From: Lancefieldella rimae ATCC 49626
Lineage (GTDB): Bacteria; Actinomycetota; Coriobacteriia; Coriobacteriales; Atopobiaceae
Direction: 5' to 3'
DNA length: 64,000 nucleotides
Assembly (NCBI RefSeq): GCF_000174015.1
Contig: NZ_ACFE01000003.1
Coordinates: forward strand, 1 to 64,000
Numbering within the stretch: position 1 is the first letter of the stretch; each line of letters starts with the position of its first letter. The translations under genes were made by a program, and so were the position numbers. The notes under the pieces are model-generated. The model ran no database searches and was not told where the DNA came from. It saw only the letters and a program-made list of their open reading frames with translations. Below are positions 4,418 through 38,503 of this stretch, piece after piece.

Positions 4418-5203
4418 CTACACCATCATACAGACAAGAACAAAAATCGTCACAATGACCGCAACCGCCCACATATACCCACTCGGACGTACAAGCAAGC
4501 TCGTCTTAGCATGCGTACCGAATCCGCGATCAGAAAGCGTGCGGGCAAGTTCTTCAGAGCGGCGAAAGAGAGAAACTACCACGGGAACCAGTACCGAAAA
4601 CCATGAGCGAACTTTTTCGATACGCGTCTCTTTTTCACAAACGCCGGCGCGAATACGCTGTGCTGTACGAATTCGATCCACCTCTTCAAGCGTTAAAGGG
4701 ATAAACCTAAGCGCAATAGAGGTCATCAAACTAAGAGCGTCAACGTCCAAGCCAACTGCGGCAAAAGGACGTAAAAAGAACGCAAGTGCCTCGGTTATCT
4801 GCACGGGAGACGTTGTCGCTGAAAACACCAACACAAAACCAAGCGCCAATGAAATACGCATCACTGCCCAAAGTCCCCGAAGCGCCCCTGTACCGGAAAG
4901 CCCCAAAATACCAAAGTGCACATCGGAAGTACCAAATAAAACCACGGTATTGGCTATAAGGGAGAACGCGAGAACAACGACCATTGGCTTAAGCGAATAC
5001 ACCGCCTTGAGCGGCGAGGCCTTGGACATTACAAGCATCCCCGCAAGCAATACACCCATACCAAAAATTCCAAAAGGCGCGTGCGCAATAAACGATCCCG
5101 TTATGCACACACACAAAAGCGCAATCTTCAAACGCGGATCATACCGGTGAAGTGGCGTTTTTGCACTCCGATACGCGCCGATACTATCGGTCAAAATCCT
5201 CAC
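4418..5203 (-). CDS. ecfT: ECF transporter transmembrane subunit EcfT
   Basis: The 261-residue membrane subunit of an energy-coupling-factor vitamin or metal importer, linking the ATPases to a substrate-binding S component. It has about five to six hydrophobic segments and the two cytoplasmic coupling-helix Ala-Arg-Gly-type motifs, seen as RTAQRIRAG (near 180) and LARTLSDRGFG (near 220). The start is a GTG at 5203, overlapping the ATPase gene by 20 bp, which suggests translational coupling. No S component is encoded nearby, so this is probably a group II module shared by dispersed S proteins. Confidence 0.9.
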   Translation of the reverse strand: MRILTDSIGAYRSAKTPLHRYDPRLKIALLCVCITGSFIAHAPFGIFGMGVLLAGMLVMSKASPLKAVYSLKPMVVVLAFSLIANTVVLFGTSDVHFGILGLSGTGALRGLWAVMRISLALGFVLVFSATTSPVQITEALAFFLRPFAAVGLDVDALSLMTSIALRFIPLTLEEVDRIRTAQRIRAGVCEKETRIEKVRSWFSVLVPVVVSLFRRSEELARTLSDRGFGTHAKTSLLVRPSGYMWAVAVIVTIFVLVCMMV

Positions 5204-6842
5204 CGCCTCTCAACTGCATCAAAAGTTGTACCTCAGGCGGTGCTTCAAGATCTGCTTTTTCGTAGATATCCTCCTGGAATTGAGCCTGTTGCGCGCAATA
5301 GGTACCAACGATTTTTCCGCCTGCCATAAACGCCACGCGATCACACACCTCAAGCCACTCCCCTACGTCATGGGTAATAACTATCGCTGGCACGCCGTGA
5401 TCTGCATACGTTCTTACCATGTTTCGTATAAGCTGCCGAGAAGCTCCGTCAAGCCCCGCCGTCGGTTCGTCTAATACCAGCGCATCAAAGTGACACGCCA
5501 CAAGACCGGCGAGTGCCACACGGCGAAGCTGGCCCCCCGAAAGTTCAAACGGGGAACGTTTGAGAATCTCAGAATCTACATCTACCTCATGAGCAGCTCT
5601 ATGAACAGAGTTTTTAAGCGAAGAAGCCGAAAAGCCTCGTACCCGAGGACCATAGGCAATGTCGTCAAAAACGGTATCCGCAAAGACTTGATTTTCGGGA
5701 TTTTGAAATGCCAAGCCGACGGAGCCCACAGATACCCGTGCTCCATCAAAGACCGCCTTACCTTCATCCGCCTCAAGAACTCCTGCAAGCACGCGAGCAG
5801 CCGTTGTTTTGCCCGATCCAGAACGGCCGGTCAAAAGGACTAATTCACCTTTTGACTCCAAAGATACCTTGTCAAGCGCACGCGTTGTCTCAAAAGTCAA
5901 AGATGCTCCGCGCAGCGCAAGAGTGTGCGCATTGAGACACGCATCTGAATCGACATCGCAATTAAGCCGAGCATGAGATAAACGTCCACAAGAAGAACTT
6001 CTCTCCAAAAGAAGGCTTTTTGCTTCATCTTGAAGCCCCTTCTTGCGTAGATATCGCCCAAGAGCTTTCATGTCGCGTGCAGCCGACAAATCAAATCCCC
6101 GTGCCACGGCCTTTTGTAGGACGCGCGTATATCCGGTATGCATAAGGCCCGCTGCGGCTGCACGGGAAGCATCTTGGAGAAAATCATTTGGAGAGCCGCT
6201 CCATGCAATCCGCCCGTCATGAAGCCACAACACCCGCGACGCACCAAACAAAGACTCTACCGAATGTGAGAGCTCCAGCACCCCAAGACCCGCCGAAACA
6301 AGAGAGGTCACAAGCGAGCGAATCTTTGTTCGTGTTCTTGCATCGAGCTGCACATATACTTCATCAAGAACGAGATAGTGGGGAGAAAGCGCAAGTGTTG
6401 CAGCAAACGCAAGAAGCTGTTGCTGACCACCAGAGAGCTCATATGTTGTGCGATCACGCAGGTATGCAATGCCACAAAGCTCAAGGGATTTTTCCGCACG
6501 CGCCAAAACCTCCGGCTGAGAAAGTCCTAAATGAGAGGGACCAAAAGCTGCTTCTTCAAAAACAGAGGCGCTTATCAGCTGGTTTGCAGGATCCTGGCGA
6601 ATCAAACCAACCTGTAAGGAACTATGTGTTGACGAAACATCCGCCGTATTCGTACCGTCAACACATACCTCCCCGTCTGTCGGCACAAGAGATCCGTTCA
6701 TAAGGCGTGCAAGAGTCGTCTTTCCGGAACCATTAGAGCCAAGAAGTACCACGCGCTCACCGGCAGAAAGCTCCATCGACACGTCCTCAAAAACGGACGG
6801 GGCATGTGGGTAAGAAAAACTCACGTGAGTTACCGATATCAT
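5184..6842 (-). CDS. fused double ATPase of an ECF transporter (EcfA1-EcfA2)
   Basis: A 552-residue protein holding two complete ABC ATPase domains in tandem. Domain 1 has Walker A GSNGSGKTT (near 40), signature LSGGQQQLLAFA and Walker B YLVLDEVY. Domain 2 has Walker A GRSGSGKTT (near 340), signature LSGGQLRRVALAG and LVLDEPTAGLD. ECF modules usually encode the two ATPases as separate genes, so this is a fusion, although fused forms are known. It powers import together with EcfT encoded just downstream. The ATG at 6842 is preceded by GGAGGAGG. A terminator-like hairpin lies directly upstream. Confidence 0.92.
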   Translation of the reverse strand: MISVTHVSFSYPHAPSVFEDVSMELSAGERVVLLGSNGSGKTTLARLMNGSLVPTDGEVCVDGTNTADVSSTHSSLQVGLIRQDPANQLISASVFEEAAFGPSHLGLSQPEVLARAEKSLELCGIAYLRDRTTYELSGGQQQLLAFAATLALSPHYLVLDEVYVQLDARTRTKIRSLVTSLVSAGLGVLELSHSVESLFGASRVLWLHDGRIAWSGSPNDFLQDASRAAAAGLMHTGYTRVLQKAVARGFDLSAARDMKALGRYLRKKGLQDEAKSLLLERSSSCGRLSHARLNCDVDSDACLNAHTLALRGASLTFETTRALDKVSLESKGELVLLTGRSGSGKTTAARVLAGVLEADEGKAVFDGARVSVGSVGLAFQNPENQVFADTVFDDIAYGPRVRGFSASSLKNSVHRAAHEVDVDSEILKRSPFELSGGQLRRVALAGLVACHFDALVLDEPTAGLDGASRQLIRNMVRTYADHGVPAIVITHDVGEWLEVCDRVAFMAGGKIVGTYCAQQAQFQEDIYEKADLEAPPEVQLLMQLRGGEDFDR

Positions 6843-24741: not shown

Positions 24742-25206
24742 CTAAATCACAACTCCAGACTTAAACATATCGACAACAATTGACTTTTCATGTGACAACT
24801 CAAGCGGAGCACCGTACGAGACAATTGGGAGATTAAGATTTCTGGGCCAAGGCTTAAACTTCAAGGTACAGATATATTTCACATAGTGAGGTAGAAGGCA
24901 ATTAGTAAGCGATCCCTCGGCAAGACCTTGGTCTTCGCAACGAACAGAAACGGAACAGGAACCCTCCCTTTGCAATCCTGAGGCTATATCTCCTTCCAAT
25001 TGAGCGCATAAAGCACCCGTATCTACACCTTGGCTTGGAGAAACAGCTTGAGAGATAACCGTATCCGAACTCAGGACGTCAAATGCTGCGCAAGCGTCGA
25101 TAAATTCCATAAGATTAATCGCAATCAACGCTACTACCACAACCACGGGAATAAGGACGGCAAGCTCAACGGTCATTTGTCCGTCTTTGTTATTCAGAAT
25201 CTTCAT
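24742..25206 (-). CDS. TadE-like minor pseudopilin
   Basis: A 154-residue pseudopilin. A class III prepilin site G9|QMTVE with Glu at +5 begins the hydrophobic helix LAVLIPVVVVVALIAINLM, followed by an extracytoplasmic domain with four Cys (two likely disulfides). It would be processed by a TadV-type peptidase and inserted in or near the Flp pilus. It overlaps the upstream TadG-like gene by 4 bp and abuts DUF192 downstream. Confidence 0.88.
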   Translation of the reverse strand: MKILNNKDGQMTVELAVLIPVVVVVALIAINLMEFIDACAAFDVLSSDTVISQAVSPSQGVDTGALCAQLEGDIASGLQREGSCSVSVRCEDQGLAEGSLTNCLLPHYVKYICTLKFKPWPRNLNLPIVSYGAPLELSHEKSIVVDMFKSGVVI

Positions 25207-27308
25207 GTTACTTTCAACAGCTTCTTGATATTGACTTTGATAGGAATGCTTCCTCCCACAATAGGGATGGGAATTTCGGCTAATGTGATTTCAGAAGGAA
25301 GATCTTTTATTACAACTCCTCCTATTACTTTTGCGTATTCCATAAAACTCCCTTGCTCTGGAAGATCAAGAATTGCCTTACGTATGGTTGCTTCTTTTGA
25401 AAATCCAGCTCGAGAAAGAATGTTTTCACTGTTGGTAAGTACTGGTCGCTTCAATCTCATATCAACTGGTTGAAGCCCCGCTCCCTCTATCAGCGTTTTC
25501 AATTTTCCTTTGAGCCATGTACCGACACCTGAAAAAATACCATCAAGCTTATCGAGAAACCCTGTTGCCTGAGAGCTAATCTTCTTGTATGCCGATCCAT
25601 AAGAAACCAACAAATTTCCCCAAAGCCCGAAGATGTCATCTGCGCCTTTACCGATAAATCCTGCTTTTTTGGAAAGAGAATCAAAAAAATCCGCTAATAC
25701 ATTGTTTTCTTTTGTAGCCTCATCAGGCGCAAGTACCGCTCCTGATATAGCCGAACCCTGTGGCAAACGTGAATGTGCAGCAAAAACCGCAGAAATAGAG
25801 CTCGCCGGAAGTTCCGTTTCTCCCCTTGTTGCAATAGCTACACAACCCCATGCTCCAGGTGGACAAAGTTTCGGACGTATTGCCGAAAGCTCTTTCAAAA
25901 TTTTTGCAAAGAGATCTTTTGACTGACTGGCGAGTTTCTTTACTTCCTTATCAATTTTAGCAACCTCTTCTAATGCCTCTTGATAGATTTTTGCCTCGTC
26001 GCAAACGATTTTCCAATAATGCTCAAAACCATTTTCGATTGAAGTGGATGCTGAGGCCACCTTACCCATATCTTCAACGCCAAGCTTGCAGTACGGGCAC
26101 TTCTCCACAGTGCCTGCGTCTAAATCAGAAAGCGAAGCATATTGAGTAATTTCCCCGTGTCTTCCAGGGCAATTTACATCTGCATGAAGAACGGTCTTCC
26201 CATCCTCAACCGAGCAAGGCCACAGCGCATCCGTATATAAAGACGTTTCTTTCATTTCTTGCACGTTACGAGGTAGTTCGGGAAATGAACATTGAACCGT
26301 ACCGTCCTCATTTTCTCGATAAGACCCGCTGCAAATTTTTTCATATGCATATTGGTAAAAAACTTTTCGACAGGCTGAATCGTTCCTTTCTTCTCCGGTA
26401 GCTCCCCCAATAACCTCCTGTACTTCTCGCGCCTTGTAATATGCCCGAGCGCGCATAAGGGGTACGCCAAATGACCATGTCTCAACAGAGTTATAGAAAG
26501 GATTGTCTTTCCCGTCGAGCATGGCGAGAGAGTGCGCCCTCTCGTACATACAAAACGAGGGGGAGTTACCGCAATCCGCTCTCCATGCCCGCTCTTTTGC
26601 TTCATTTGCCTTCTTCTGAGCTTTTTCTTTTTGCTCCGTCTTGTCCTGAATTTCTTTACTCTTTTTGGTAAGTTCCTCATCATTGATATCGCTATCAAGC
26701 GAACCAAACTCAGATTTTGACTGTAGGGGAAACGGAAGAGCAGCGCCCGTATAGTGCAAAGATCCCTTTGAGTTTGAGCGTATACACGCATATGATTGAG
26801 CCGCGATAAGAGCGGGCATGATTTTTTCAAACGATTGAAGCCCTTTTACAACGCTCTGAGAGAAATCTCTCCGTGCCTTTAGAATAGACGATCCTGTTTG
26901 ACTTAACTTTGCCCCTGCAGCTTGGAGTCCAGGAACACACGATGTTATTAACCCTGCACCAAGGGCGACAATACCTGTAAGACCCATACTAAGGACACAT
27001 GCATCCAAAACGGTAGCCACGGTTGTGTATTTTGCAACAACGTTTTCCCCGGCCAGAGCACCTGCATCAGCGATTGATTGCGTTTCGTAGCTATCTGTCA
27101 GAACCTGCCCTACGGAAACCAAACTGAAGAGGAGTGCAAGAACAACAAGCAAGGTTGTTGCCATGGCAACCGTTGTAAACCCTCCTGAATCATGTACGAA
27201 AATATTCATAAATGGCGCACGATACATCTCATCAGATTCAACGGGCATCTGAGATTTTGAACGCCCACATAGTGCGCCTCTAGCTCCACATATGAATCCA
27301 TTCTGCAT
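25203..27308 (-). CDS. large TadG-like pilus assembly protein
   Basis: A 701-residue protein with one N-terminal membrane span (FTTVAMATTLLVVLALLFSLVSVG, near residues 44-67) followed by the QSIADAGALAGENVV segment typical of TadE/TadG proteins, another hydrophobic stretch near 100, and a long extracytoplasmic part with a Lys/Glu-rich coiled-coil (near 220-245). Cys clusters occur mid-protein (CPGRHG and CPYC). The pre-span site GGFTTV lacks the +5 Glu of the smaller pseudopilins. No VWA domain is evident, unlike proteobacterial TadG. GGAGG precedes the ATG at 27308. It probably anchors or matures the pilus. Confidence 0.75.
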   Translation of the reverse strand: MQNGFICGARGALCGRSKSQMPVESDEMYRAPFMNIFVHDSGGFTTVAMATTLLVVLALLFSLVSVGQVLTDSYETQSIADAGALAGENVVAKYTTVATVLDACVLSMGLTGIVALGAGLITSCVPGLQAAGAKLSQTGSSILKARRDFSQSVVKGLQSFEKIMPALIAAQSYACIRSNSKGSLHYTGAALPFPLQSKSEFGSLDSDINDEELTKKSKEIQDKTEQKEKAQKKANEAKERAWRADCGNSPSFCMYERAHSLAMLDGKDNPFYNSVETWSFGVPLMRARAYYKAREVQEVIGGATGEERNDSACRKVFYQYAYEKICSGSYRENEDGTVQCSFPELPRNVQEMKETSLYTDALWPCSVEDGKTVLHADVNCPGRHGEITQYASLSDLDAGTVEKCPYCKLGVEDMGKVASASTSIENGFEHYWKIVCDEAKIYQEALEEVAKIDKEVKKLASQSKDLFAKILKELSAIRPKLCPPGAWGCVAIATRGETELPASSISAVFAAHSRLPQGSAISGAVLAPDEATKENNVLADFFDSLSKKAGFIGKGADDIFGLWGNLLVSYGSAYKKISSQATGFLDKLDGIFSGVGTWLKGKLKTLIEGAGLQPVDMRLKRPVLTNSENILSRAGFSKEATIRKAILDLPEQGSFMEYAKVIGGVVIKDLPSEITLAEIPIPIVGGSIPIKVNIKKLLKVT

Positions 27309-27759
27309 AGGAACCTCCAAGCCACTTGGGACGAATCTTTTCCTGAACGCGAGTTGAAACGACATACCCTTGTCCATCATTTTTACCTGCTAAAGAAAGC
27401 AACCACCCAACAGGAGGGAGAGGGTGCATGTGTCCTGTTATCTTGACGTAAACTTCTTGGTCATCCTTTTGCAACTCAATGTTCCAATCCTCTCTCCCGC
27501 CAGCATGAAAAAGAGGAATTTCTGGAATAGCTCTGAGACGTCTTTGTACATAACTCCTACATTGATGCACATCAGTTGATGTGCCATATAAACGAGCAGC
27601 CTCAGATGCAGCTTCACTCATAACGGTCCTGGTATACAAAATGCAAACAGGCTGTAGTAATACCGCAAAAAGAATCAAAAGAATCGGAAGGAGAATCGCT
27701 GCTTCAACAGAAGATTGTCCTGTTGTGTCGTTGGTAGCGCCTCTAGTACAAAAGCACAT
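27280..27759 (-). CDS. TadE-like pseudopilin
   Basis: A 159-residue pseudopilin. G14|QSSVE with Glu at +5 leads into AAILLPILLILFAVLLQPVCILY, then the TadE pattern TVMSEAASEAARLYG. The outer domain has a few Cys and a final Trp-rich stretch. It overlaps its neighbours at both ends (17 bp upstream, 29 bp downstream). The ATG at 27759 is chosen for the family-typical short leader; its Shine-Dalgarno is weak, so expression may rely on coupling. Confidence 0.85.
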   Translation of the reverse strand: MCFCTRGATNDTTGQSSVEAAILLPILLILFAVLLQPVCILYTRTVMSEAASEAARLYGTSTDVHQCRSYVQRRLRAIPEIPLFHAGGREDWNIELQKDDQEVYVKITGHMHPLPPVGWLLSLAGKNDGQGYVVSTRVQEKIRPKWLGGSYAEWIHMWS

Positions 27760-27985
27760 CTTTAAGTGTCTTTGAAAATTCAGGAGATAATGCATGAGAT
27801 GCCGCACGAGTTGCAGACTCAATAAATAGCCCCGAATGCACAGCTTGCCACAGCGCAGTAAGAGTGACAACCATTGCGAGAAAAGCAAAGAGAACGACAG
27901 CATACTCCAAGGTTGATTGTCCACTTTTATCCCCTATCATTCTTGAGAGGCTATTTCTTGTATCTCTTGAATCGTTACATGACAT
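27743..27985 (-). CDS. small TadE/Flp-like pseudopilin
   Basis: An 80-residue pilin-like protein. A leader of 22 residues ends at G22|QSTLEYAVVLFAFLAMVVT, with Glu at +5 and Tyr at +6 exactly as in Flp pilins, followed by a short amphipathic tail. It could be a minor pilin or initiation subunit. AAAGG lies about seven bases before the ATG at 27985. It overlaps both adjacent genes. Confidence 0.85.
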   Translation of the reverse strand: MSCNDSRDTRNSLSRMIGDKSGQSTLEYAVVLFAFLAMVVTLTALWQAVHSGLFIESATRAASHALSPEFSKTLKDVLLY

Positions 27986-28416
27986 ACGGCAACCTTTCGA
28001 CTCGATCCTTCGTCGCTAATGAGACATATATCAACCCATCCACTTCCTTGGAAAATACAGCTCCACACGTTTCCCAATACATCGAGATATCCGGAAAATA
28101 TAGGGATTGAATCACCCTGCTCTTCATATGAGCGCAGCAGCTCTTCTCCAACTTCTTGAAACGACTTCGTACTTTCCCATGTTTGTTGCGGGTTGGAAAT
28201 CAATTTTTTATGAAGATATTCAGATACTTGCCTATCTTTTGAAATATCTACTGGCCTTTGAGTCTTTTCACCAGGCTGTCCGGAAATACCTTGCTCAAAT
28301 TTCTCTGACTCAGATGCAGTTTGTGTAACTGTTTTGGGCAGCAACAACAGTCCTAACGTTGTGAAAACAAGGCATGCAATAACAAATATTGCCACTGAAT
28401 GCTTTTTCATGAACAT
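27937..28416 (-). CDS. membrane-anchored protein of unknown function in the tad operon
   Basis: A 159-residue protein with an N-terminal membrane anchor (SVAIFVIACLVFTTLGLLLL) and an extracytoplasmic, mostly helical domain; the end contains three Cys. I recognise no family. Its start overlaps the flp stop as TGATG and its end overlaps the next pseudopilin by 49 bp, so it is a fixed operon member, plausibly a pilus accessory. The precise start (28416 or 28410) is open. Confidence 0.6.
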   Translation of the reverse strand: MFMKKHSVAIFVIACLVFTTLGLLLLPKTVTQTASESEKFEQGISGQPGEKTQRPVDISKDRQVSEYLHKKLISNPQQTWESTKSFQEVGEELLRSYEEQGDSIPIFSGYLDVLGNVWSCIFQGSGWVDICLISDEGSSRKVAVCHVTIQEIQEIASQE

Positions 28417-28613
28417 CACAGTGAGTTAATTCCTGTTGTAATTGCATTCCATAGCTCAGTGATTTTTCCTTTAAAGGCAATAATGGCAACTATTGCAATA
28501 ACCACCAAAACTCCCACAAGAATGGCGTATTCAGTAGTACCCTGCCCATCCTGATTGTGATAAAAGGCTTGCAGACGAGAAGTAACTCTACTAAGACGCG
28601 TTTTATCAAACAT
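28416..28613 (-). CDS. flp: Flp major pilin
   Basis: A 65-residue Flp-type prepilin. The leader ends at G23|QGTTEYAILVGVLVVIAIV with the diagnostic Glu(+5)-Tyr(+6), followed by a short FKGKITELWNAITTGINSL tail. After cleavage by a class III prepilin peptidase it would polymerise into the thin tad pilus used for adherence and, in some actinobacteria, DNA uptake. It lies between tadC and the unknown membrane protein. Confidence 0.93.
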   Translation of the reverse strand: MFDKTRLSRVTSRLQAFYHNQDGQGTTEYAILVGVLVVIAIVAIIAFKGKITELWNAITTGINSL

Positions 28614-28635: not shown

Positions 28636-29307
28636 TTACCATACTGAAAGAGCCGGACCTAAAAGTGGTCCAAGAATTGCTATAAGCATTGCAGGAACAA
28701 TAAGCGTTCCTAAAGGAAGAAGCATCTTTACCGGCACTTTTTCTATTTCAGCTTCAAGTGCTGCCCTTTGATCATCTCGAATTGTTCCGGCTTGCCGTTC
28801 AAGTGAATCCGAAAGAGGTGTGCCAAACGCAAGAGACTCGGTTACCACAGAAGCAAAACTTAAAAGAGAGGTAATGCCATATTCCGCTGCAATCTCTTCA
28901 AGCGCAGTAGATCTTGTCGTAGCACCCATCTGCCAGGAGAGCAGCGCCTGACTCATTTTTTCCGAAAGAACACCGCTACAGCGATTGCAATATAAATCGA
29001 GTGAAGAATCAAACGAGAGACCGGACGACAGCCCTAACGTGAGAACGTCTAACATACGTGGCATTTCTTTAATAATGGCGTTCCGTTGATGTGCAATTCT
29101 CTTCCGCTTGGTTACTTCTCTTACTATTTTTAAGATACCCGCCACGCTCAAAATTTCTTGAAGCCAAGAGTTTAAACGCTTGGATCTCAAGCCATGATCT
29201 TGAGTTCCATGTTTCTGGATGGGACTTTTTACACTTGTGAACAGCCATACCGAGCCCATTAAAGACCCCGCTACACCTCCCACGAAAACAATACGTAAAA
29301 GCATCAT
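28636..29307 (-). CDS. tadC: tad pilus inner-membrane platform protein TadC
   Basis: A 223-residue type II secretion F-family membrane protein. A span lies at the N-terminus and others near the C-terminus (VKMLLPLGTLIVPAMLIAILGPLLG), around a cytoplasmic helical domain with MPRMLDVLTLGLSSGLSFDSS. It forms the assembly platform with TadB. The start ATG at 29307 overlaps the tadB stop in a TGATG, with AAAGGTG upstream. Confidence 0.9.
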   Translation of the reverse strand: MMLLRIVFVGGVAGSLMGSVWLFTSVKSPIQKHGTQDHGLRSKRLNSWLQEILSVAGILKIVREVTKRKRIAHQRNAIIKEMPRMLDVLTLGLSSGLSFDSSLDLYCNRCSGVLSEKMSQALLSWQMGATTRSTALEEIAAEYGITSLLSFASVVTESLAFGTPLSDSLERQAGTIRDDQRAALEAEIEKVPVKMLLPLGTLIVPAMLIAILGPLLGPALSVW

Positions 29308-30242
29308 CACAACACCTTTTTCATCAATTTCCGAATGATAACTAGTGCACCTGCATCCATTCCTAATGCAAGAAGCGTGCAAATAATTCCTGTCGTTGTA
29401 GTAAGACCCTTTTGAAAATCAGGAGAAATAAGTGAGAGCACGCCAATGAGAAGAAGCGGCAATAAACACACAATTCGTGCAGAAAGACGTACTTGTGCCG
29501 TTTTAACGGAGAGCAGCCGCTCAAACTCTGACTGTCTTTCTACCAATGTTGCCGTTCTGAGGAAAAGATTACGAAGAGGACTTCCTGTCCGATGAGATAT
29601 AACAAGTGCGGTTGCAAGTAAACTTGAACCTGGAACAGAAAGATCGCAAGCAAGCTCCTCTACAACAGACTCAACAGGCATACCACAACGCAATTTAAGA
29701 GACGCTCGAATAAAATACTGGGCAACTGCTCCATGTGAATGATTCCCGACATATTCAATAGCCTGTGAGAGCGTCTGACCTGACCCCAAAGCAACCGAGA
29801 GTGTGCGATAAATTCCCGGCATACTGTGTGATACTTCAAGCTTAAGCTTCCGGCAGTCATTTTCATATTTCATAGGTATATACGCTATAAGAGCTATAGC
29901 AGTAAAAAAGACTCCTGCCACAGATCTAAAAAGCAACCCTATAAGAAATGCCACTCCTACAATGCTTAAAAGAATTTCAACGCATGACTCTTCAATATCA
30001 ATGTGAGTAATATCCCCATTTACCTGTTGCTTCCACATTTGTGCTACATGCTTCCAGCAAGGTATCTCACACAAACTTGAAATAAGCCTCGTGTGGGCAA
30101 GTGGTTGCACAAGATTGATAATTATCGCTTGAACAGAAGCTCCGGACTTTGATGCCCCTTTCCAGGTCTGCACAAATCCTAATAAAAGATAGGTAAGTGT
30201 ACCTACTGTAAGGCAGAAGCACAAGATGCTTGCTTTTCCCAT
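29307..30242 (-). CDS. tadB: tad pilus inner-membrane platform protein TadB
   Basis: A 311-residue type II secretion F-family protein with an N-terminal span, a paired span near 100-135 (SIVGVAFLIGLLF, FFTAIALIAYIP) and two C-terminal spans. The cytoplasmic domain has MPGIYRTLSVALGSGQTLSQAIEYV and TGSPLRNLFLRTATLVERQ. It pairs with TadC to receive force from the ATPase. The ATG at 30242 has GAGGAGG upstream and lies 40 bp inside the end of the ATPase gene. Confidence 0.9.
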   Translation of the reverse strand: MGKASILCFCLTVGTLTYLLLGFVQTWKGASKSGASVQAIIINLVQPLAHTRLISSLCEIPCWKHVAQMWKQQVNGDITHIDIEESCVEILLSIVGVAFLIGLLFRSVAGVFFTAIALIAYIPMKYENDCRKLKLEVSHSMPGIYRTLSVALGSGQTLSQAIEYVGNHSHGAVAQYFIRASLKLRCGMPVESVVEELACDLSVPGSSLLATALVISHRTGSPLRNLFLRTATLVERQSEFERLLSVKTAQVRLSARIVCLLPLLLIGVLSLISPDFQKGLTTTTGIICTLLALGMDAGALVIIRKLMKKVL

Positions 30243-31558
30243 CTTTCCACCTCCTCTTGTGAAAGTCGTCTTTCTTTCTCTGCCGCCGTAATAAACGAAG
30301 GAACATGATTGAGGTGCCATTGCCGTGTAAACGCATCAAAAGAAATACACTCTTGTATGCAAATAGTCCTATCCTGTTGCCAAAATAATTCCGAAATGGA
30401 AGTAACGTAACGTCTGCCATCAGGTAATCTTTGAGCCATAACAATGAGATCAAGTGCAGATGCAATTTGCTCTTCAATAATATCGGCAGGAAGATCCATT
30501 CCAAATCGGGCCATAAGAACCAATCGCAAGATTGCTTCTTTAGCGGTACCTGCATGAAGAGTAGTCAGAGAACCATCATGTCCGGTATTCATCGCTTGAA
30601 GCATATCAATACATTCTTCACCGCGAACCTCCCCAACGATGATCCGGTCGGGTCTCATCCGAAGTGCGTTTCTAACCAAACGCCTAATTGTAATTTCTCC
30701 TGTTCCTTCAATTGAGGCACTCCGCGCTTCAAGCCGCACAACATTGGGATGAGCGTCAAAACGTAACTCCGCCGAATCTTCAATGGTTACAATTCGCTCT
30801 GATACATCAATCTCGCATGAAAGCGCATTGAGAAGGGTTGTTTTACCGGATCCCGTTCCTCCAACAACCGCAATACCTTTTCTCATTTTCACTGCCCAAG
30901 AAAGGAGTTGAGCAAGCCATGATGGAAGTGACCCTAATTCAATCAAACGTGAAAGGGAAGTGATCTTTCCGGTAAAACGCCTAATAGTCACAGCAGGTCC
31001 ATTAATGGCAATAGGTTCTGCCACTGCATTTACTCTATCTCCATTCGCAAGGCGTGCATCAACAATAGGGCTCACTTGGTCGAGACGTCTACCAAGCGGC
31101 GCCAAAATACGATCCATAACAATAAGAATCTGCTCTGGAGAATCAAAGACTGCATCAGCTTCACGGATCTCACCGTTCTTCTCGTAAAAAAGAGATCCGC
31201 ATCCGTTAATCATAATCTCCGTTACTTCAAGATCCTCTAACAGTGGTTGAATGGGACCAAGCCCACAAATCTCATCAACTACTTGTCGAATAAGCTGTGC
31301 CGAAGTTTCAAGTTCAGGTACGTCAAAGGAATTCTCGTTAAGAATTTCCTGACATGCCACGGTCAATTCTTCGCGAACATAGCCAATATCGCCTTGTTTC
31401 ATGAGCTGAGAAATAGTTGAAAGTCCTAATTGACTTACAAGCTTCTTTTTTAAATCAGACCTTTGTTGAGACAGTTGGCTGTTCTGGCCTAAGCCGCCTT
31501 CCCTTGAATCAGACGTATTATTTGACTGAGCTGCGTGTACACGCTCTAACACTGACAC
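30203..31558 (-). CDS. tadA: tad pilus assembly ATPase TadA/CpaF
   Basis: A 451-residue secretion ATPase that powers pilin polymerisation. It has an N-terminal helical domain, then [17 protein letters not shown], Walker A GGTGSGKT (233-240), the Asp box [10 protein letters not shown], Walker [11 protein letters not shown] and the His box GSLTTLHAG. This is the CpaF family with the actinobacterial [20 protein letters not shown] loop. It lies directly after cpaE and overlaps tadB. Confidence 0.95.
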
Positions 31559-32875
31559 TTACCCCACCTCCTTTTGCTTTCTAAACAAACCTAAGAGACG
31601 GTGTTCGAGTGACCACTTTGATGCTTTGTTCGCTGCATCGCATTTTGGTAGTGCTCCCAAGCCTAAAAAGAGCTGAGCGAGCGTTGCTGCGAGCGAATTT
31701 GAAAAAGGTGAAGATTCCTGAAGCAGCATTGGCAACTGCCCCGATGAAATGAGAGACAAGACATCAGGGCCCCCATCAAAAACTTGATATTGTCGCGCCG
31801 CTTCAAGTCCAATTTCTGCTCGACCCGTAGAAATGTCTTGTCTCAGCCGAGGGTCAGCTTTGTTCTCAATACGAACAATCCGCGTGCGAGCAACACCGAG
31901 TCTCACTGCAAGACTACTGGTTCTTGACATGGACGCAAGTGAAAAAACCGGTCTGCCTGTTACTATGACAAACCTATCGCTTAGTTGAGCTGCCTGCGCG
32001 ACAATGTCCGTTGGTGTTGTTGAAGTGTCTACGATAACCACATCAACAATGCCCGAAATTGCCTGTATTAAGTTACCCGCAAAAGGAGTAACCATCTCTG
32101 CCATTTCCGGTTTTAAGCAAGGTCCCCATAGCAAGATATTCTCTGCTGCCACAACGGCTGACGCCTTAAACGACTCAATGTCTCTCGGTCCATTGACCGC
32201 AAATCTCGCCAAATCATTCAATTTGGTATGCGCAAAGCAGGAATAAAGATTTCCGCAAGAAAGGTCCAAATCGATCAGACCAACCTTCATGCCCCATGAA
32301 GCAGCGATAAGAGCAAACGAAGCCGCAATGGTTGTCTTGCCCACCCCTCCTCGTCCTGAAGCTATTGTCAGGATTGGAGCATGTGAGATTTCAGAAGGCG
32401 GCACAAGGCTTTCTAATGTGGTGTCAGCTTTCGGAGAAGAAATGGAATTTGGAAATTTATCCAAATCAAAATCAGGCAAAGCCGGAAGAACATTGAGACC
32501 CCCGTCAACAATTTGGATTCTCCCGGCTTTAGCGAGCTCAATAATTTCGATAGGATCAAGTACCAAATCAATTCCGGCACGGGCGGCACGCGATCTGAGG
32601 GATCCCGAGGCGTTGCGACGAACAAGCACCACTGCCCGAGCGTTTCCATCGTGTGATATCGCGGCAGCTAGATTAATATCCGAGACATCTCCTTGAAAGG
32701 AACCGATTGCTACCGAGTATTCATCAGGCCGAGCTTCACTCACTAATTGCCGAAGATCTGAAGCGCTTTTTACAAATTCACAATTTCCCATTGCACCTAA
32801 CGAGGAAAGAACTAAATTAAGCTCAACGCGATGCGCAATATCAGAAAATGCAAGCCACTTCTCTTTTACATTCAT
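31559..32875 (-). CDS. cpaE: tad locus localisation ATPase CpaE/TadZ
   Basis: A 438-residue protein with a receiver-like N-terminal domain (about 1-110, lacking an obvious phospho-acceptor set) and a MinD/ParA-type ATPase. The deviant Walker A is SGRGGVGKTT (173-182), with VGLIDLDLSCGNLY after it. In other tad systems this protein positions the pilus machine at a pole or site. It overlaps cpaB by 4 bp and abuts tadA. Confidence 0.9.
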   Translation of the reverse strand: MNVKEKWLAFSDIAHRVELNLVLSSLGAMGNCEFVKSASDLRQLVSEARPDEYSVAIGSFQGDVSDINLAAAISHDGNARAVVLVRRNASGSLRSRAARAGIDLVLDPIEIIELAKAGRIQIVDGGLNVLPALPDFDLDKFPNSISSPKADTTLESLVPPSEISHAPILTIASGRGGVGKTTIAASFALIAASWGMKVGLIDLDLSCGNLYSCFAHTKLNDLARFAVNGPRDIESFKASAVVAAENILLWGPCLKPEMAEMVTPFAGNLIQAISGIVDVVIVDTSTTPTDIVAQAAQLSDRFVIVTGRPVFSLASMSRTSSLAVRLGVARTRIVRIENKADPRLRQDISTGRAEIGLEAARQYQVFDGGPDVLSLISSGQLPMLLQESSPFSNSLAATLAQLFLGLGALPKCDAANKASKWSLEHRLLGLFRKQKEVG

Positions 32876-33660
32876 TCTTCCTCCTCGTTTTCCCGAGTGG
32901 TACGAGAACCTTCCTCGTCATTCGTCTGATGAGTATCAACAGGTACATCAGTTGATTCATGTTCTTGTAGGGTATTTGTTATGCTTGGCTGTACTTCAGT
33001 TGGGGCATTTTCTGTTCCCAACTTCGACATATCAACTTCATCGCCAGGAACCACCAGCCTAAGAGTTCCTTTCGCTTCAGCCGAAAGAATACTTGTCATA
33101 TCTTTTGGTAAAACTCCCACGGTTAGCGGTGTGCTGGAAATGTAGACACTTTCTCCGGTATCTGAAAGCAGCGTAATCTGCGTTGAGAGCAACCTGATAC
33201 CGTGATCTGTCATCTCGTACGCCGCAAGCGTTGTCCCTGCAGCAACTTTTCCAACCAGACCGGTTTTCTCGCCATGAGAAATAGAGATCCCTACAAGACC
33301 TTTAGGAACCGTTACGGTAGTTTCATTTGTCCGAAAATTAAGTTTGGTGAGTGGTGTTCCGGCACTTATAGGAATTGTTACCTGTTTGCCCATAATATCG
33401 TCGGCATTGGTAAACGATCCTTCGGGAGCAAGATCTGAAACCCAGCTTTTTACCTGAGTGTTAGATGATGAAATGGTATCTCCGGCCTCAATGGGTTTTG
33501 TGGCCACCACAAGATTTACCACTTCCCCACCGTAGCGCTCAATCACCTCGGCACGCGACTGCTCTGCCTCGGCTTTAATCTGGTTTCCATACACGATGCA
33601 GCACAACACCGCGAGAAGAGCACATGCACCCGAAAGTACGAATCTAAAACGATGTGACAT
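32872..33660 (-). CDS. cpaB: SAF-domain pilus protein CpaB/RcpC
   Basis: A 262-residue protein with an N-terminal membrane anchor (FVLSGACALLAVLCCIVYG), an SAF domain (NLVVATKPIEAGDTISSSN, MGKQVTIPISAGTPLTKLNF) and a distal RcpC-type beta region. The last ~45 residues are acidic and disordered (Thr/Glu/Asp-rich, ending NEEEE). In monoderms it probably guides the pilus through the wall, since no secretin is present. It is the first gene of the operon, with GGAGGG before the ATG. Confidence 0.88.
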   Translation of the reverse strand: MSHRFRFVLSGACALLAVLCCIVYGNQIKAEAEQSRAEVIERYGGEVVNLVVATKPIEAGDTISSSNTQVKSWVSDLAPEGSFTNADDIMGKQVTIPISAGTPLTKLNFRTNETTVTVPKGLVGISISHGEKTGLVGKVAAGTTLAAYEMTDHGIRLLSTQITLLSDTGESVYISSTPLTVGVLPKDMTSILSAEAKGTLRLVVPGDEVDMSKLGTENAPTEVQPSITNTLQEHESTDVPVDTHQTNDEEGSRTTRENEEEE

Positions 33661-33745
33661 TCAAACCCTCCAAACCGTCTTGGTAAGGAGATTGTCACTG
33701 AACCCCTCTCACACGAAGTCTACTTTCTCAAAAAGCCCTTCCGTA

Positions 33746-33774
33746 ATCTGACGCGTATCTGACACGAAACTGAC
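33746..33774 (-). promoter_or_regulatory. three 7-bp direct repeats at 11-bp pitch upstream of the tad operon
   Basis: Read on the minus strand the half-sites are GTCAGTT (33774-33768), GTCAGAT (33763-33757) and GTCAGAT (33752-33746), each separated by 4 bp. Seven-bp direct repeats spaced one helical turn apart are the layout bound by OmpR/PhoB-family and SARP-type winged-helix regulators. The array lies 86 bp upstream of the cpaB ATG. A TAGACT (33722-33717) downstream could be the -10 box. Confidence 0.55.
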
Positions 33775-33891: not shown

Positions 33892-33929
33892 AAAAAAGAG
33901 TCTCCATCTCAAATAAGAGACAGAGACTC
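33892..33929 (-). terminator. intrinsic terminator of the PTS operon
   Basis: On the minus strand a 13-bp stem (33929-33917 with 33910-33898, outer GAGTCTC/GAGACTC, two wobble pairs) with a 6-nt loop is followed by six Ts (33897-33892). A CGAGAAG motif lies just upstream (33936-33942, minus orientation). Confidence 0.88.
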
Positions 33930-33970
33930 CAGGTTCTTCTCGCCAGCGAGGTCTGGCCAGAAAGAAACAC

Positions 33971-34306
33971 CTACTTTTGAAGAAGCTTCTCGTACACGTC
34001 GATAAAATCCTCGGCTATGACACGGAATGTTTCTGCTTGCATCAACTGGTCTTCTGCATGAATCAAAATAAGTGAAAATTCAATGTCACCCGAATTGACA
34101 GCGGACTGCTGAAGCAGGGAGAGGTGTGTTGCGTGGCCTTCGTTGAATATCTCAGTACCCAATGCAACATCGGCTCGGGCGCCATTAATATCCCCTTCCT
34201 TCGCCTTTTTAATTGCTCCGATATACATCGATTTTGCGGTTCCTACCGTAGCAATAATTTCAAATGCAGCTTCCTGAGCTGCGGTCATTTCGTCGTCTGC
34301 TGCCAT
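33971..34306 (-). CDS. PTS lactose/cellobiose-family IIA component
   Basis: A 111-residue cytoplasmic phosphocarrier that passes phosphate from HPr to IIB. The three-helix IIA-Lac fold is visible (AAFEIIATVGTAKSMYIGAIKKA, GHATHLSLLQQ), with the phospho-His in LILIHAEDQLM. The ATG at 34306 is chosen by the AAAGGTGAG upstream; an earlier ATG at 34324 has a weaker site. It is the last gene of a bglA-IIC-IIB-IIA transcript. Confidence 0.93.
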   Translation of the reverse strand: MAADDEMTAAQEAAFEIIATVGTAKSMYIGAIKKAKEGDINGARADVALGTEIFNEGHATHLSLLQQSAVNSGDIEFSLILIHAEDQLMQAETFRVIAEDFIDVYEKLLQK

Positions 34307-34353
34307 GTACTTCTCACCTTTCATCAAAGATCTACAACGTGCAAGCTAATGGC

Positions 34354-34656
34354 TTACTTGTTATTGATAATCTCCTGCGCATCATCCAAAATCTTTGCAG
34401 CATTCATGCGTCCGTAATCTGCCATTGCGATAACGGCAACAGGAATATCGCCGGCAGCAGCTTCTGCATCAGCTTTGGCATATGCAATCTGGGGACCCAG
34501 CAGAAGAATATCGGCTCCTTCGAGCATTTCGAGAGCTTTATTAAGTGGATTGGCAACAATCTCGACATCAAGCCCACGTGCAGCCGCTTCTTTTTTCATC
34601 TTCTGAACCAAAAGACTTGTTGACATGCCGGCATTGCAAGCAAGTAAAATCTTCAC
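34354..34656 (-). CDS. PTS lactose/cellobiose-family IIB component
   Basis: A 100-residue IIB domain that phosphorylates the incoming sugar on a cysteine. The P-loop MKILLACNAGMSTSLL places the phospho-Cys at residue 7. The rest, DILLLGPQIAYAKADAEAAAG, is typical. It is separated from the IIC gene by 81 bp containing a hairpin that may set the IIC:IIB ratio. Confidence 0.95.
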   Translation of the reverse strand: MKILLACNAGMSTSLLVQKMKKEAAARGLDVEIVANPLNKALEMLEGADILLLGPQIAYAKADAEAAAGDIPVAVIAMADYGRMNAAKILDDAQEIINNK

Positions 34657-34687
34657 TTCATTCCCCTTTCAAAATTCCGGTATCGAT

Positions 34688-34724
34688 ATATGAGCCGGAC
34701 GTATATAAACTGTCCGACTCATAT
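34688..34724 (-). repeat. intra-operon hairpin between IIC and IIB
   Basis: ATATGAGCCGGAC (34688-34700) and GTCCGACTCATAT (34712-34724) form a 13-bp stem with an 11-nt loop. The one non-Watson-Crick position is C-A on the plus strand but G-U on the minus strand, so the structure favours the minus-strand transcript. No T-run follows, so mRNA processing or stability is likelier than termination. Confidence 0.6.
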
Positions 34725-34737
34725 AGTACGCATATAC

Positions 34738-36171
34738 CTACTCAGAATCGGTATTCTTAAGTGCTTCCGCCTGCTTTGCTTGGACGCGCTCAGAAATGCG
34801 CATAAAGGGCAGGTAAATAGCCATCGCAAGTACAACCTCAATAACCTGCCAGATAACCGCACGGAAATCACCCGCAGTTGCAAGCCAACCGCTGATAAAG
34901 ACCGGCGTAGTCCAAGGAACCATAGCAACGCACGGGCTAATAAGGCCAAGGTTGGTCAAAAGATAGGTCAGACCGATGAAAAGATCCGGAACAAGAACAA
35001 ACGGAATGATCAGCGGGAGGTTATAGACGATGGGATAGCCATAGATAACCGGCTCGTTGATGTTAAAAATACCAGGAAGTAAAGACAGCGCCGCAACATC
35101 TTTGGATGCTTTGTTCTTGGAGAACAAGAACGTATCAAAGAGCAACATCAACGTGCAGCCAGAACCACCGATAAGGGCAAAGGTATTAATAATCTGCATG
35201 TTCATATAGTGATCTTGCGGAATGGGCTGACCGGCAGCAAAGGTTGCCATATTATCCACAATAAGCATGGTCAGGATTGGCTCAACAAGAACACCGGAGA
35301 TGGTGGACTGGTGAATGCCAAGGCAGAAAAGCAGGTTAGCAAAGGTATAAATGATAATGACGGCAAAGGGTCCGGCATTCATAAGACCCTTGAGCGGCGC
35401 TGAAATACCCGTTGCGATCAAAGCCATAAGGTTCGTGCTGAAGAAAACGCTCAAAAGAGCAGCAGCAAGAGCAAATACTGACAGCGTCAACATCATAGGG
35501 ATCATTGTGTTAAAGGAGTCGGCAACCGCAGGAGGAACGCCTTCTCCAAGGTTAACCTTCAACCGCTTAATGCTTGAAAGCTTAATAAAAAGCGTCGTGG
35601 CGAGAAGACCAATGATAATGGCACCAAAAAGACCATTGGTGCCCGTATAAGAAGAAGAGAAAACACCCGTAACATCCACACCGGAAATCTCATAATTTGG
35701 AGGGAAGTTTAAGATGAGATCTTTCATGGGAACGGTAAGTGGAGCGGCCGTCTTATCAACGGCGCTTGCCGCATGAAGAGCAGCACCCGCTGTTGCCACA
35801 ATAGTCTGAGGCATCATAATAATCAACGAAGCAATGCCGATGACTACGCAAGAAATTGCATTGTCAAAACGCTTATTTCGAGCAAGGCAATAACCGATAA
35901 TACCTGCAAGAATAACGGCAGAGAAGCTCAGAGTACCCTGCGCAATGGAGGCACCCCAAGTCTGGAACTTAGCAAGCGTCTCTGCATCCCCGCCAAATAT
36001 CCATGGGAATAAAACGTTGTTAATAAGTACTGCAACGCCGGCAAGAATATAGATAGGACTGACCGTTGCAAATGCGTCTCGCAAGCTCCTCAAGTGTACT
36101 TGATTACCTACTTTGGCCGAAACTTCCGCAAACTTGTCGAGAAAGGACGGACCGGTTTTCTCAGATGCCAT
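34738..36171 (-). CDS. PTS cellobiose-family IIC permease
   Basis: A 477-residue membrane permease for a beta-glucoside or related disaccharide. About ten hydrophobic segments are seen, with the family regions SPIYILAGVAVLINN, LGIHQSTISGVLVEP and LLPGIFNINEPVIYGYPIVYN. It is longer than the common ~430 residues because of an insertion in the first half (near 130-165, ending NFPPNYEISG). It sits between the GH1 gene and IIB, so cellobiose-type sugars are the likely substrates. Confidence 0.93.
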   Translation of the reverse strand: MASEKTGPSFLDKFAEVSAKVGNQVHLRSLRDAFATVSPIYILAGVAVLINNVLFPWIFGGDAETLAKFQTWGASIAQGTLSFSAVILAGIIGYCLARNKRFDNAISCVVIGIASLIIMMPQTIVATAGAALHAASAVDKTAAPLTVPMKDLILNFPPNYEISGVDVTGVFSSSYTGTNGLFGAIIIGLLATTLFIKLSSIKRLKVNLGEGVPPAVADSFNTMIPMMLTLSVFALAAALLSVFFSTNLMALIATGISAPLKGLMNAGPFAVIIIYTFANLLFCLGIHQSTISGVLVEPILTMLIVDNMATFAAGQPIPQDHYMNMQIINTFALIGGSGCTLMLLFDTFLFSKNKASKDVAALSLLPGIFNINEPVIYGYPIVYNLPLIIPFVLVPDLFIGLTYLLTNLGLISPCVAMVPWTTPVFISGWLATAGDFRAVIWQVIEVVLAMAIYLPFMRISERVQAKQAEALKNTDSE

Positions 36172-36199
36172 AAGGCTCTCTCCTTTCGACTGCCGTTAC

Positions 36200-37597
36200 T
36201 TAGCTAACGACATGAGTCATGGCCACTTGACGCAGCCAACTTGCTGATTTTTTAAGGCGACGCTCGTAGTTATTTTCGAGATCAACCTCAATAAAGCCAT
36301 AACGATTCTTGAACGCATTTGCCCAAGACCAGTTATCGATAACTGCCCAATAATGATATCCGCGGCATTTTGCGCCATCCGCAATTGCCCGCGCAATCCA
36401 TTCCAGGTGACGACGGACAAAGTCAATACGATAGTCGTCTTGAATGATGCCTGTATCATCCTTCTTCAGATACTCGCGCTCAACGCCCATGCCGTTCTCA
36501 GACACAAACCACTCAAGCTCGGGGTACTCATTGCGAATCTTCATGGCAAAATCGTAGAGTCCCTGCGGATAAATTTCCCAACCGCGTGATACGTTCATCT
36601 CTGCATCGGGCCAAACGTAAGGATCCGCAAAATTTGGAATTCCATTTTCATCGGTATCTTTTGCAGGAGCCTGTACCCGTTCCGGATGATAGTAATTACA
36701 CCCAAGCCAATCGACCTTTGCATCAGCAAGAATCATCTTGTCTTCAGGGCGAACGGGTAACTTTACGCCGCGTTTATCAAGAGATTCAATCACATCCTGT
36801 GGAAGCTCTCCTTTTGTCACAAGGTCAAGCCACCAGCGGATGTTAACACCGTCTGTCATCCGAAGCGCTTCAAGATCTGCTTCTGTTGGGTTTTCTTTTG
36901 TATATGGTGGTGCAAAACAGTTAATGAGACCAATGCGAGAATCCTCAAGCATGAAACCCTCTGCCTTTGCAGCATGGTACTCACGAACGGCTAAAGCATG
37001 AGCCACTGAGATGTTGTATTGCACGGCACGTGCACGAGCATAGTTTTTAATAAAGGGATACCAGCCGCCTTGGGTATAGCGCATTTCCGGCTCTACGATA
37101 GGCTCGTTAAACGTAAACCAATAGCGAATTTCTTTGCCAAAGGTTCTCAATGCAAGACGCGCATAATGAGCATATGCCTCAACTACTTCACGAGACTCCC
37201 AGCCTCCACGCTTAAAGAGATATTCCGGCATGTCAAAATGATACAGATTGATAAAAATCTCTATTCCTGCCTCTTTCGCATCAGCAAAGAGCTTGTGGTA
37301 GAAGCGCTCTCCTTCTGGATTCAGATTCCCATTTTGGTCCAACAATCGGCTCCATTGAATAGACGTACGCACGGAAGTGAGGCCAAGTGATTTTAAGAGC
37401 TTAAAGTCTTCATTATGACGACGGCTAAAGTCATTTCCACCATACGATCCCACACGATTATAAAATGCGGTAATGTCAAGGTTTGACCAAGTATCCCAAA
37501 GATTTGGGAGTTTATTGCCATCCTGCCACATACCTTCTGTTTGTGGACCAGACATAGCGGCACCAAAAAAGAAATCTTTTGGCAACGTATAGGACAT
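36200..37597 (-). CDS. GH1 6-phospho-beta-glucosidase
   Basis: A 465-residue family 1 glycosidase hydrolysing the phosphorylated disaccharide delivered by the adjacent PTS. The acid/base Glu is in WFTFNEPIVEPE (near 165) and the nucleophile Glu in VSENGMGVE (near 368). DFFFGAAMSGPQTEG at the start and YWAVIDNWSWANAFKNRYGF at the end are family signatures. GGGAGGAG precedes the ATG. It is the first gene of the PTS operon, divergent from a GntR regulator. The specific sugar (cellobiose, salicin, arbutin) is not determined. Confidence 0.93.
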   Translation of the reverse strand: MSYTLPKDFFFGAAMSGPQTEGMWQDGNKLPNLWDTWSNLDITAFYNRVGSYGGNDFSRRHNEDFKLLKSLGLTSVRTSIQWSRLLDQNGNLNPEGERFYHKLFADAKEAGIEIFINLYHFDMPEYLFKRGGWESREVVEAYAHYARLALRTFGKEIRYWFTFNEPIVEPEMRYTQGGWYPFIKNYARARAVQYNISVAHALAVREYHAAKAEGFMLEDSRIGLINCFAPPYTKENPTEADLEALRMTDGVNIRWWLDLVTKGELPQDVIESLDKRGVKLPVRPEDKMILADAKVDWLGCNYYHPERVQAPAKDTDENGIPNFADPYVWPDAEMNVSRGWEIYPQGLYDFAMKIRNEYPELEWFVSENGMGVEREYLKKDDTGIIQDDYRIDFVRRHLEWIARAIADGAKCRGYHYWAVIDNWSWANAFKNRYGFIEVDLENNYERRLKKSASWLRQVAMTHVVS

Positions 37598-37625
37598 CTA
37601 CACATCTCCTCCCTTATTCTTCTCG

Positions 37626-37645
37626 CCGTATTCTTTAGAATACGG
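37626..37645. promoter_or_regulatory. 20-bp palindrome in the bglA/gntR spacer
   Basis: CCGTATTC (37626-37633), TTTA, GAATACGG (37638-37645) is a perfect 8-bp-arm palindrome 29 bp upstream of the GH1 start. As DNA it could be an operator; in the minus-strand mRNA it would form a leader hairpin. A CGAGAAG motif (minus orientation) adjoins it at 37619-37625. Confidence 0.5.
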
Positions 37646-37655
37646 TAAATATATA

Positions 37656-37684
37656 CTACTTTACATATCTTCTAATTAAAGTAG
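37656..37684. promoter_or_regulatory. inverted repeat, possible GntR operator
   Basis: CTACTTTA (37656-37663) and TAAAGTAG (37677-37684) are exact inverted copies 13 bp apart, in the AT-rich centre between divergent genes. Together with the neighbouring palindrome it is a candidate binding site for the adjacent GntR protein. A possible gntR -10 box TATACT lies at 37709-37714. Confidence 0.45.
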
Positions 37685-37783
37685 ACATGTCAGGTTTACT
37701 ACATATGCTATACTACAACAAATTGAATGAAATGAGAACGACTAGTTAAAGAATTTCCGGTGAACGTTGGGAGGTAAGCCACC

Positions 37784-38503
37784 ATGCTTAAGTATGAACT
37801 GGTGATACAGGATCTTAAACGAAGCATCTCACAGGGAACCTATGCTCCTTATTCTCAACTCCCCTCCATTTCACAGCTCTGTAAACAGTATGGCGTAAGC
37901 AAGATCACGATTAATAAGGCACTTGACGCCCTTCAATCACAAGGGCTTATCTCCCGTCGAAGGGGCTCCGGAACCTTTGTGAAGAAGCTCGAGGACTATA
38001 CCCAAATTAAACCGAGCCAGGAAGTTTCAGGTCAGATGGAAGGTTTCCTTGCAGAACATACCGCACGAGGCGAAAAAGTACATACTAAGGTTTACGTCTT
38101 TGAGGTAGAAAGGCCATCTGAATACATTGCACACGCACTTGACATAAATCAACAGGACTTTGTATATCGCATTATCCGTGTACGTTACACCAATGATATT
38201 CCTTTAGTTATCGAATACACGTATATGCCTATCGACGAAATACCCAACCTCAAAATGACCCATTTAAACACATCAATCTATTCCTACATCGAGCACGATT
38301 TGGGGTTAAAGATAGCCAATGCACACCGTGTGATTAGAGCAGTGTTACCTACCGTAAAAGAGTGTAAGCGGCTTAATATCGAAAATGACGAGCCCATGCT
38401 TGAAGTTGAACAAATCGGATATCTCGATGACGGGCGGCCGTTTGAATATTCCATCGCACGACATGCTCACGGATATGAGTTTTTGACCATCTCCACTCAC
38501 TAA
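37784..38503 (+). CDS. GntR/HutC-family repressor of the beta-glucoside operon
   Basis: A 239-residue regulator with an N-terminal winged helix (YAPYSQLPSISQLCKQYGVSKITINKALDAL, RRGSGTFV) and a C-terminal UTRA ligand domain (FVYRIIRVRYTNDIPLVIEYTYMP, RPFEYSIARHAHGYEF). The family usually senses a phosphorylated sugar and represses its neighbour operon; the divergent GH1-PTS genes are the obvious target. GGGAGG precedes the ATG. Confidence 0.92.
   Translation: MLKYELVIQDLKRSISQGTYAPYSQLPSISQLCKQYGVSKITINKALDALQSQGLISRRRGSGTFVKKLEDYTQIKPSQEVSGQMEGFLAEHTARGEKVHTKVYVFEVERPSEYIAHALDINQQDFVYRIIRVRYTNDIPLVIEYTYMPIDEIPNLKMTHLNTSIYSYIEHDLGLKIANAHRVIRAVLPTVKECKRLNIENDEPMLEVEQIGYLDDGRPFEYSIARHAHGYEFLTISTH

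Follow-up and report, generated by a model that had tools for sequence, protein, structure and literature searches.

A pilus, together with comEA-comEC, dprA, ssb and recA, forms the usual core of competence regulons. The ComK regulon of Bacillus and the ComX regulon of Streptococcus unite a DNA-uptake channel, a pilus, dprA, ssb and recA, much like the gene set described here; however, the regulator family and the operator of those systems are unrelated to ours, and their pilus is of the Com type, whereas ours is a Tad pilus. Micrococcus luteus, which is also actinobacterial, needs its tad genes and comEA/comEC for transformation; the paper on this species does not mention a SARP and describes the regulation of competence as little known (PMC8467076). 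The title of a paper on Liberibacter states that Tad pili are essential for DNA uptake (PMC8513845).

SARP regulators bind direct repeats spaced at 11 or 22 bp, of which the 3' repeat lies 8 bp from the -10 element (PMC10936776; PMC4393881). Three heptamers separated by 4-bp spacers form the site bound by PimR, and PimR and other Streptomyces SARP-LAL proteins resemble the system reported here both in this operator layout and in being large regulators with a SARP domain joined to an ATP-binding part. In PimR, however, the SARP domain is N-terminal, whereas in our regulator it is C-terminal; the PimR consensus is CGGCAAG, in contrast to the GTCARAY heptamer found here; and PimR acts on one polyene gene cluster, whereas the targets here are of the competence type (PMC5930380). 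AfsR (PMC10936776) and EmbR share a wHTH-BTAD fold with our regulator. AfsR further resembles it in its NOD and TPR parts, in its 11-bp repeats and in the distance of 8 bp to the -10, but its domain order is reversed relative to the protein described below, and it acts in antibiotic regulation (PMC10936776). EmbR differs in carrying an FHA domain.

The window (the whole 64,000-nucleotide stretch analyzed) belongs to a 1.63-Mb Atopobiaceae genome in nine contigs, which we examined by pattern search and by reading of stretches. On its minus strand, three heptamers precede cpaB, the first gene of a tad operon: GTCAGTT (33768..33774, distal to cpaB), GTCAGAT (33757..33763) and GTCAGAT (33746..33752, proximal), separated by TCGT and ACGC. 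An earlier note on this DNA had described these repeats, and its coordinates, 7-bp units, 4-bp gaps and 11-bp pitch all proved exact; it did not state that the array lies on the minus strand, the same strand as cpaB, and recurrence across the genome was beyond its reach. Both adjacent heptamer pairs fit the pattern GTCAGWT-N4-GTCAGWT with 0 mismatches, and the sole other match in the window when up to two mismatches were allowed was a weak one at 38020, with two mismatches. The proximal end of the array is 85 bp from the cpaB ATG at 33660, which is preceded by GGAGGG (33666..33671, minus strand), the probable cpaB ribosome-binding site. Just upstream of the array is a promoter-like GTGAAA-16-GATAAT (33811-33784, minus strand), and farther upstream, on the 3' side of a PTS operon, an intrinsic terminator-like hairpin (33897..33930, minus strand). 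This PTS operon, of the lactose/cellobiose type, a glycosidase and a GntR-type regulator (33971-38503) separate the tad array from rsgA.

All genes of the tad operon are on the minus strand. They comprise cpaB/rcpC with a SAF domain (32872..33660, PF08666); cpaE/tadZ, encoding a ParA/MinD-like ATPase with orthologues in 30/30 genomes of the family (31559..32875); the secretion ATPase gene tadA/cpaF (30203..31558, PF00437); and the T2SSF genes tadB (29307..30320) and tadC (28636..29382), both matching PF00482. Inspection of the open reading frames by eye added a probable Flp major pilin of 65 aa with a GTTEYAIL motif (28416..28613) and, without a profile test, probable TadE/TadF/TadG-like minor pilin genes (24742..27985). 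In a profile search of the genome, TadA was the only T2SSE protein above the family cut-off. If the cells take up DNA by a type IV filament, Tad is therefore the only candidate found.

When up to three mismatches were allowed, three GTCARAY units at 11-bp pitch gave 22 matches in the genome, versus 1 for the reversed pattern. These matches merge to about 12 arrays, each of two to five units, and three arrays, including that of tad, contain mismatch-free two-unit matches. Across 41 units compared, G1, C3 and A4 are invariant, 37 have T at position 2, and only A or G occurs at position 5. A two-copy match at C6:13804 was taken as chance, since by eye it appears to lie within a MerR-like coding sequence.

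Genes near the arrays were named from Pfam where cited and otherwise from reading of the sequence. Apart from cpaB and the tad operon, arrays have the following genes downstream on the same strand: recA-recX, comEA-comEC, yraN-comM-dprA, rpsF-ssb, a SpaA-type adhesin (a surface protein with SpaA/T-Q ester domains; site at L046:4511-4550), and three paralogous orphan proteins of 356 to 384 aa that lack a Pfam match. Another array, of two units, has pth2 on one side, encoded on the strand of the array, and a divergently oriented prepilin peptidase gene on the other. A three-unit array (C7:187208, L044:5209-5237) separates a Phd/ParE-like toxin-antitoxin pair from a GAF protein; it is oriented opposite to both, and no same-strand gene is evident for it. 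These last two arrays fit poorly with a simple same-strand activator.

The same array operator is thus found at comEA-comEC, comM-dprA, pilus and recombination genes, as in a natural competence regulon. We postulate, with a probability of roughly three in four, that the array serves as operator for a SARP-type protein, the master activator of natural competence, and that the Tad pilus is the DNA-uptake pilus; a competence regulon is the most likely explanation because this operator is common to the tad, com, dprA, recA and ssb targets. On this evidence the suggestion of the earlier note that the repeats govern pilus expression was too narrow, as the motif marks a competence-like regulon across the genome. 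An alternative hypothesis is that the arrays mark a stress or DNA repair regulon, in which the pilus and adhesin would act in adhesion and recA, ssb and dprA in repair. The presence of recA, ssb and the adhesin among the array members agrees with this, as does a LexA-box-like GAAC-N4-GTTC site, which we noted by eye downstream of the recA array (L052) and which is also present in other genera. We regard this alternative as unlikely, given that comEA-comEC and comM-dprA, which have few known roles outside transformation, both have arrays and that recA, ssb and dprA are themselves usual members of known competence regulons.

The orphan proteins belong to a family of about 350 to 390 aa with upstream arrays (L043:5322-6461, plus strand; L048:4022-5092, minus strand; L050:4155-5309, minus strand), members of which also have upstream arrays in relatives (L118, L126, L128, L131). 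Searches of Pfam, NCBIfam and PDB gave nothing reliable for this family. By eye, its invariant SPME, PD, E..G, H and D..R residues look like the core of a PD-(D/E)XK/Vsr-type nuclease.

The distance from the arrays to the putative -10 elements is characteristic. In ten gene-facing arrays, the match to TATAAT peaked at a gap of 8 bp after the last heptamer, where 33/60 positions agreed; the mean match was 3.3/6 at this gap and did not exceed 2.7 at any other (shuffle p = 5e-5). The gap-8 hexamer is TAGAAT at recA and TAGCAT at the adhesin. In G024, a relative of the same genus, the SpaA/T-Q ester surface protein (L120) likewise has an array operator with a -10 of TAGCAT. The published SARP distance of 8 bp between the 3' repeat and the -10 therefore holds for the set of arrays. 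The tad promoter is the exception: GGCTTT (33732..33737, minus strand), which occupies the -10 slot predicted from the other arrays and the SARP literature, 8 bp past heptamer 3, resembles TATAAT poorly, and the corresponding hexamer in G024 is GACTTC. This exception counts against our preferred explanation. It would be easier to understand if the SARP repressed its targets or if the tad array were a repressor site, a position that is possible at tad because the promoter-like GATAAT lies upstream of the array. At most other targets, however, the array is upstream of the -10 at the fixed 8 bp, an activator position, and we consider repression improbable.

Which protein would bind the arrays? 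The genome encodes a single BTAD match in a profile search, a 1010-aa protein (PF03704, E 8.7e-9, above the curated Pfam cut-off). Its gene is preceded by an array, which, however, points away from it; this also counts against the activator model. The array upstream of the BTAD gene recurs in G024 and G025 and, weakly, in G026. Orthologues of the regulator occur in 136/140 genomes of the family and related proteins in 283/398 genomes of the class; the named relatives are Atopobiaceae. In G023 the SARP seemed truncated, but only because of masked sequence.

As a structural reference we used a 58%-identical orthologue, encoded at locus L253 in Atopobium sp. oral taxon 199 and modeled with a mean pLDDT of 80.9. 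AfsR and EmbR were its two top matches in structure comparison, with model residues 737-989 aligning to AfsR over 240 residues (Z 18.3, 3.4 A) and to EmbR over 239 residues (Z 18.3, 3.0 A). STAND/NOD proteins, CED-4 among them (Z about 14-15), match the N-terminal part of the model, and TPR proteins, including those of the Rap type (Z up to 17.6), match its middle part. The Rap-type resemblance may reflect helical repeats only, and we do not take it as evidence of a peptide signal. A PDB sequence-profile search with an alignment of the SARP gave no SARP match at E 0.1. The protein has the BTAD domain of SARP regulators and, in the orthologue model, an adjoining OmpR-type wHTH with an AfsR/EmbR-like fold; this wHTH-BTAD part is C-terminal rather than N-terminal as in the large Streptomyces regulators of the AfsR/PimR type. 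From its predicted fold, the regulator is a large SARP, in which a STAND-ATPase/TPR portion is followed by a C-terminal OmpR-like wHTH and BTAD.

Several features surround the SARP gene. A conserved ACCGATTACCGA-like element separates the array from the SARP start (L045 about 5190-5330, L114, L116), and in the genome containing the window the array additionally contains an inverted repeat, TTTGACAG-GTAT-CTGTCAAA. Judged only from spurious open reading frames, the neighbors of the SARP gene in L114, L115 and L116 look like ribosomal RNA genes; in other genomes its neighbor is secA (L117, L133).

The earlier note had read the layout as that of winged-helix regulators of either the OmpR/PhoB or the SARP kind. 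The winged-helix assignment stands, and the SARP option is favored by the 11-bp pitch, the 8-bp distance to the -10 and the position of an array upstream of the sole BTAD gene; the two-component option found no support in the array features and neighboring genes considered here. In that second option, the arrays would be operators of an OmpR/PhoB-family response regulator, and a phosphorylation signal would control the gene set. Direct 7-bp repeats spaced at 11 bp are recognized by PhoB-type regulators as well, and SARPs too have an OmpR-like DNA-binding domain; the layout by itself therefore fails to separate the two families. The gap of 8 bp to the -10 is nevertheless a published SARP hallmark, the only BTAD gene has an array upstream, and there is no response-regulator gene among the genes seen downstream of arrays. 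We think a two-component operator doubtful, marginally more so than the repair regulon.

Conservation in relatives was examined at several taxonomic depths. Within the genus, G024 and G025 each had 11 array matches and 0 in the control. The proposal of the earlier note hinged on conservation of the repeats at orthologous tad promoters, and we found the tad array retained in G024, G025, G026 and G023, in weaker form in the last two. In G024 it reads GTCAGATTCAC GTCATATTCGC GTCAGAT, and the gene upstream differs, being rsgA in G024 and the PTS operon in the genome containing the window. The G024 locus (L119), in which the tad array adjoins rsgA, is without the PTS operon, glycosidase and GntR-type regulator. 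G024 also retains arrays at comM-dprA, the adhesin, an orphan protein and the SARP gene.

For other genera, the upstream regions of comEC, comM, recA and tad were scored with a weight matrix from the genome containing the window. The tad upstream regions of G027, G018 and G036, from three other genera, scored above 17 bits. Of 103 upstream regions from the family's other genera, 17 exceeded 6 bits at pitch 11, whereas no other pitch between 7 and 16 gave more than 3, and this peak was absent from coding-part controls. The signal in these genera is therefore specific to the exact 11-bp pitch of the window's array, one of the two pitches described for SARP sites. Many genera of the family yielded no array at the 6-bit threshold with this matrix, and conservation across the family is consequently partial. 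In the sister family Coriobacteriaceae, 5/19 comEC upstream regions had arrays at pitch 11 versus at most 1 at other pitches, which is only suggestive of an extension of the signal to that family. The units are short, and repeats of this kind could in principle arise by chance and have no function; we assign this explanation a negligible probability in view of the 22-to-1 enrichment in the genome and the conservation across species and genera.

We propose that the three heptamers are the operator for the genome's single SARP-type activator, protomers of which would line up on adjacent heptamers along a single face of the DNA. At the majority of targets the SARP would recruit RNA polymerase to a -10 starting 8 bp past the last heptamer, substituting for a weak or missing -35. 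In response to a signal that would trigger competence, the Tad pilus would be produced jointly with the DNA-uptake and recombination genes and would act as the DNA-uptake pilus. A broader version, that a STAND-TPR-SARP master activator with its domains in reverse order controls natural competence in Coriobacteriia, with Tad as the sole uptake pilus alongside ComEA/EC, DprA, SSB and RecA and with the nuclease-like family and the adhesin added to the regulon, seems to us slightly better than an even bet. A literature search, which left preprints and most subscription papers outside its scope, found no SARP tied to competence and no competence study in Coriobacteriia.

If this explanation is correct, DNA uptake has a named regulator and operator in a class of Actinobacteria common in the mouth and gut, and the Tad pilus is tied to competence genes through shared regulation. 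SARP regulators, known from antibiotic clusters, would be extended to DNA uptake, and transformation in these bacteria would become testable through the deletion of one gene.
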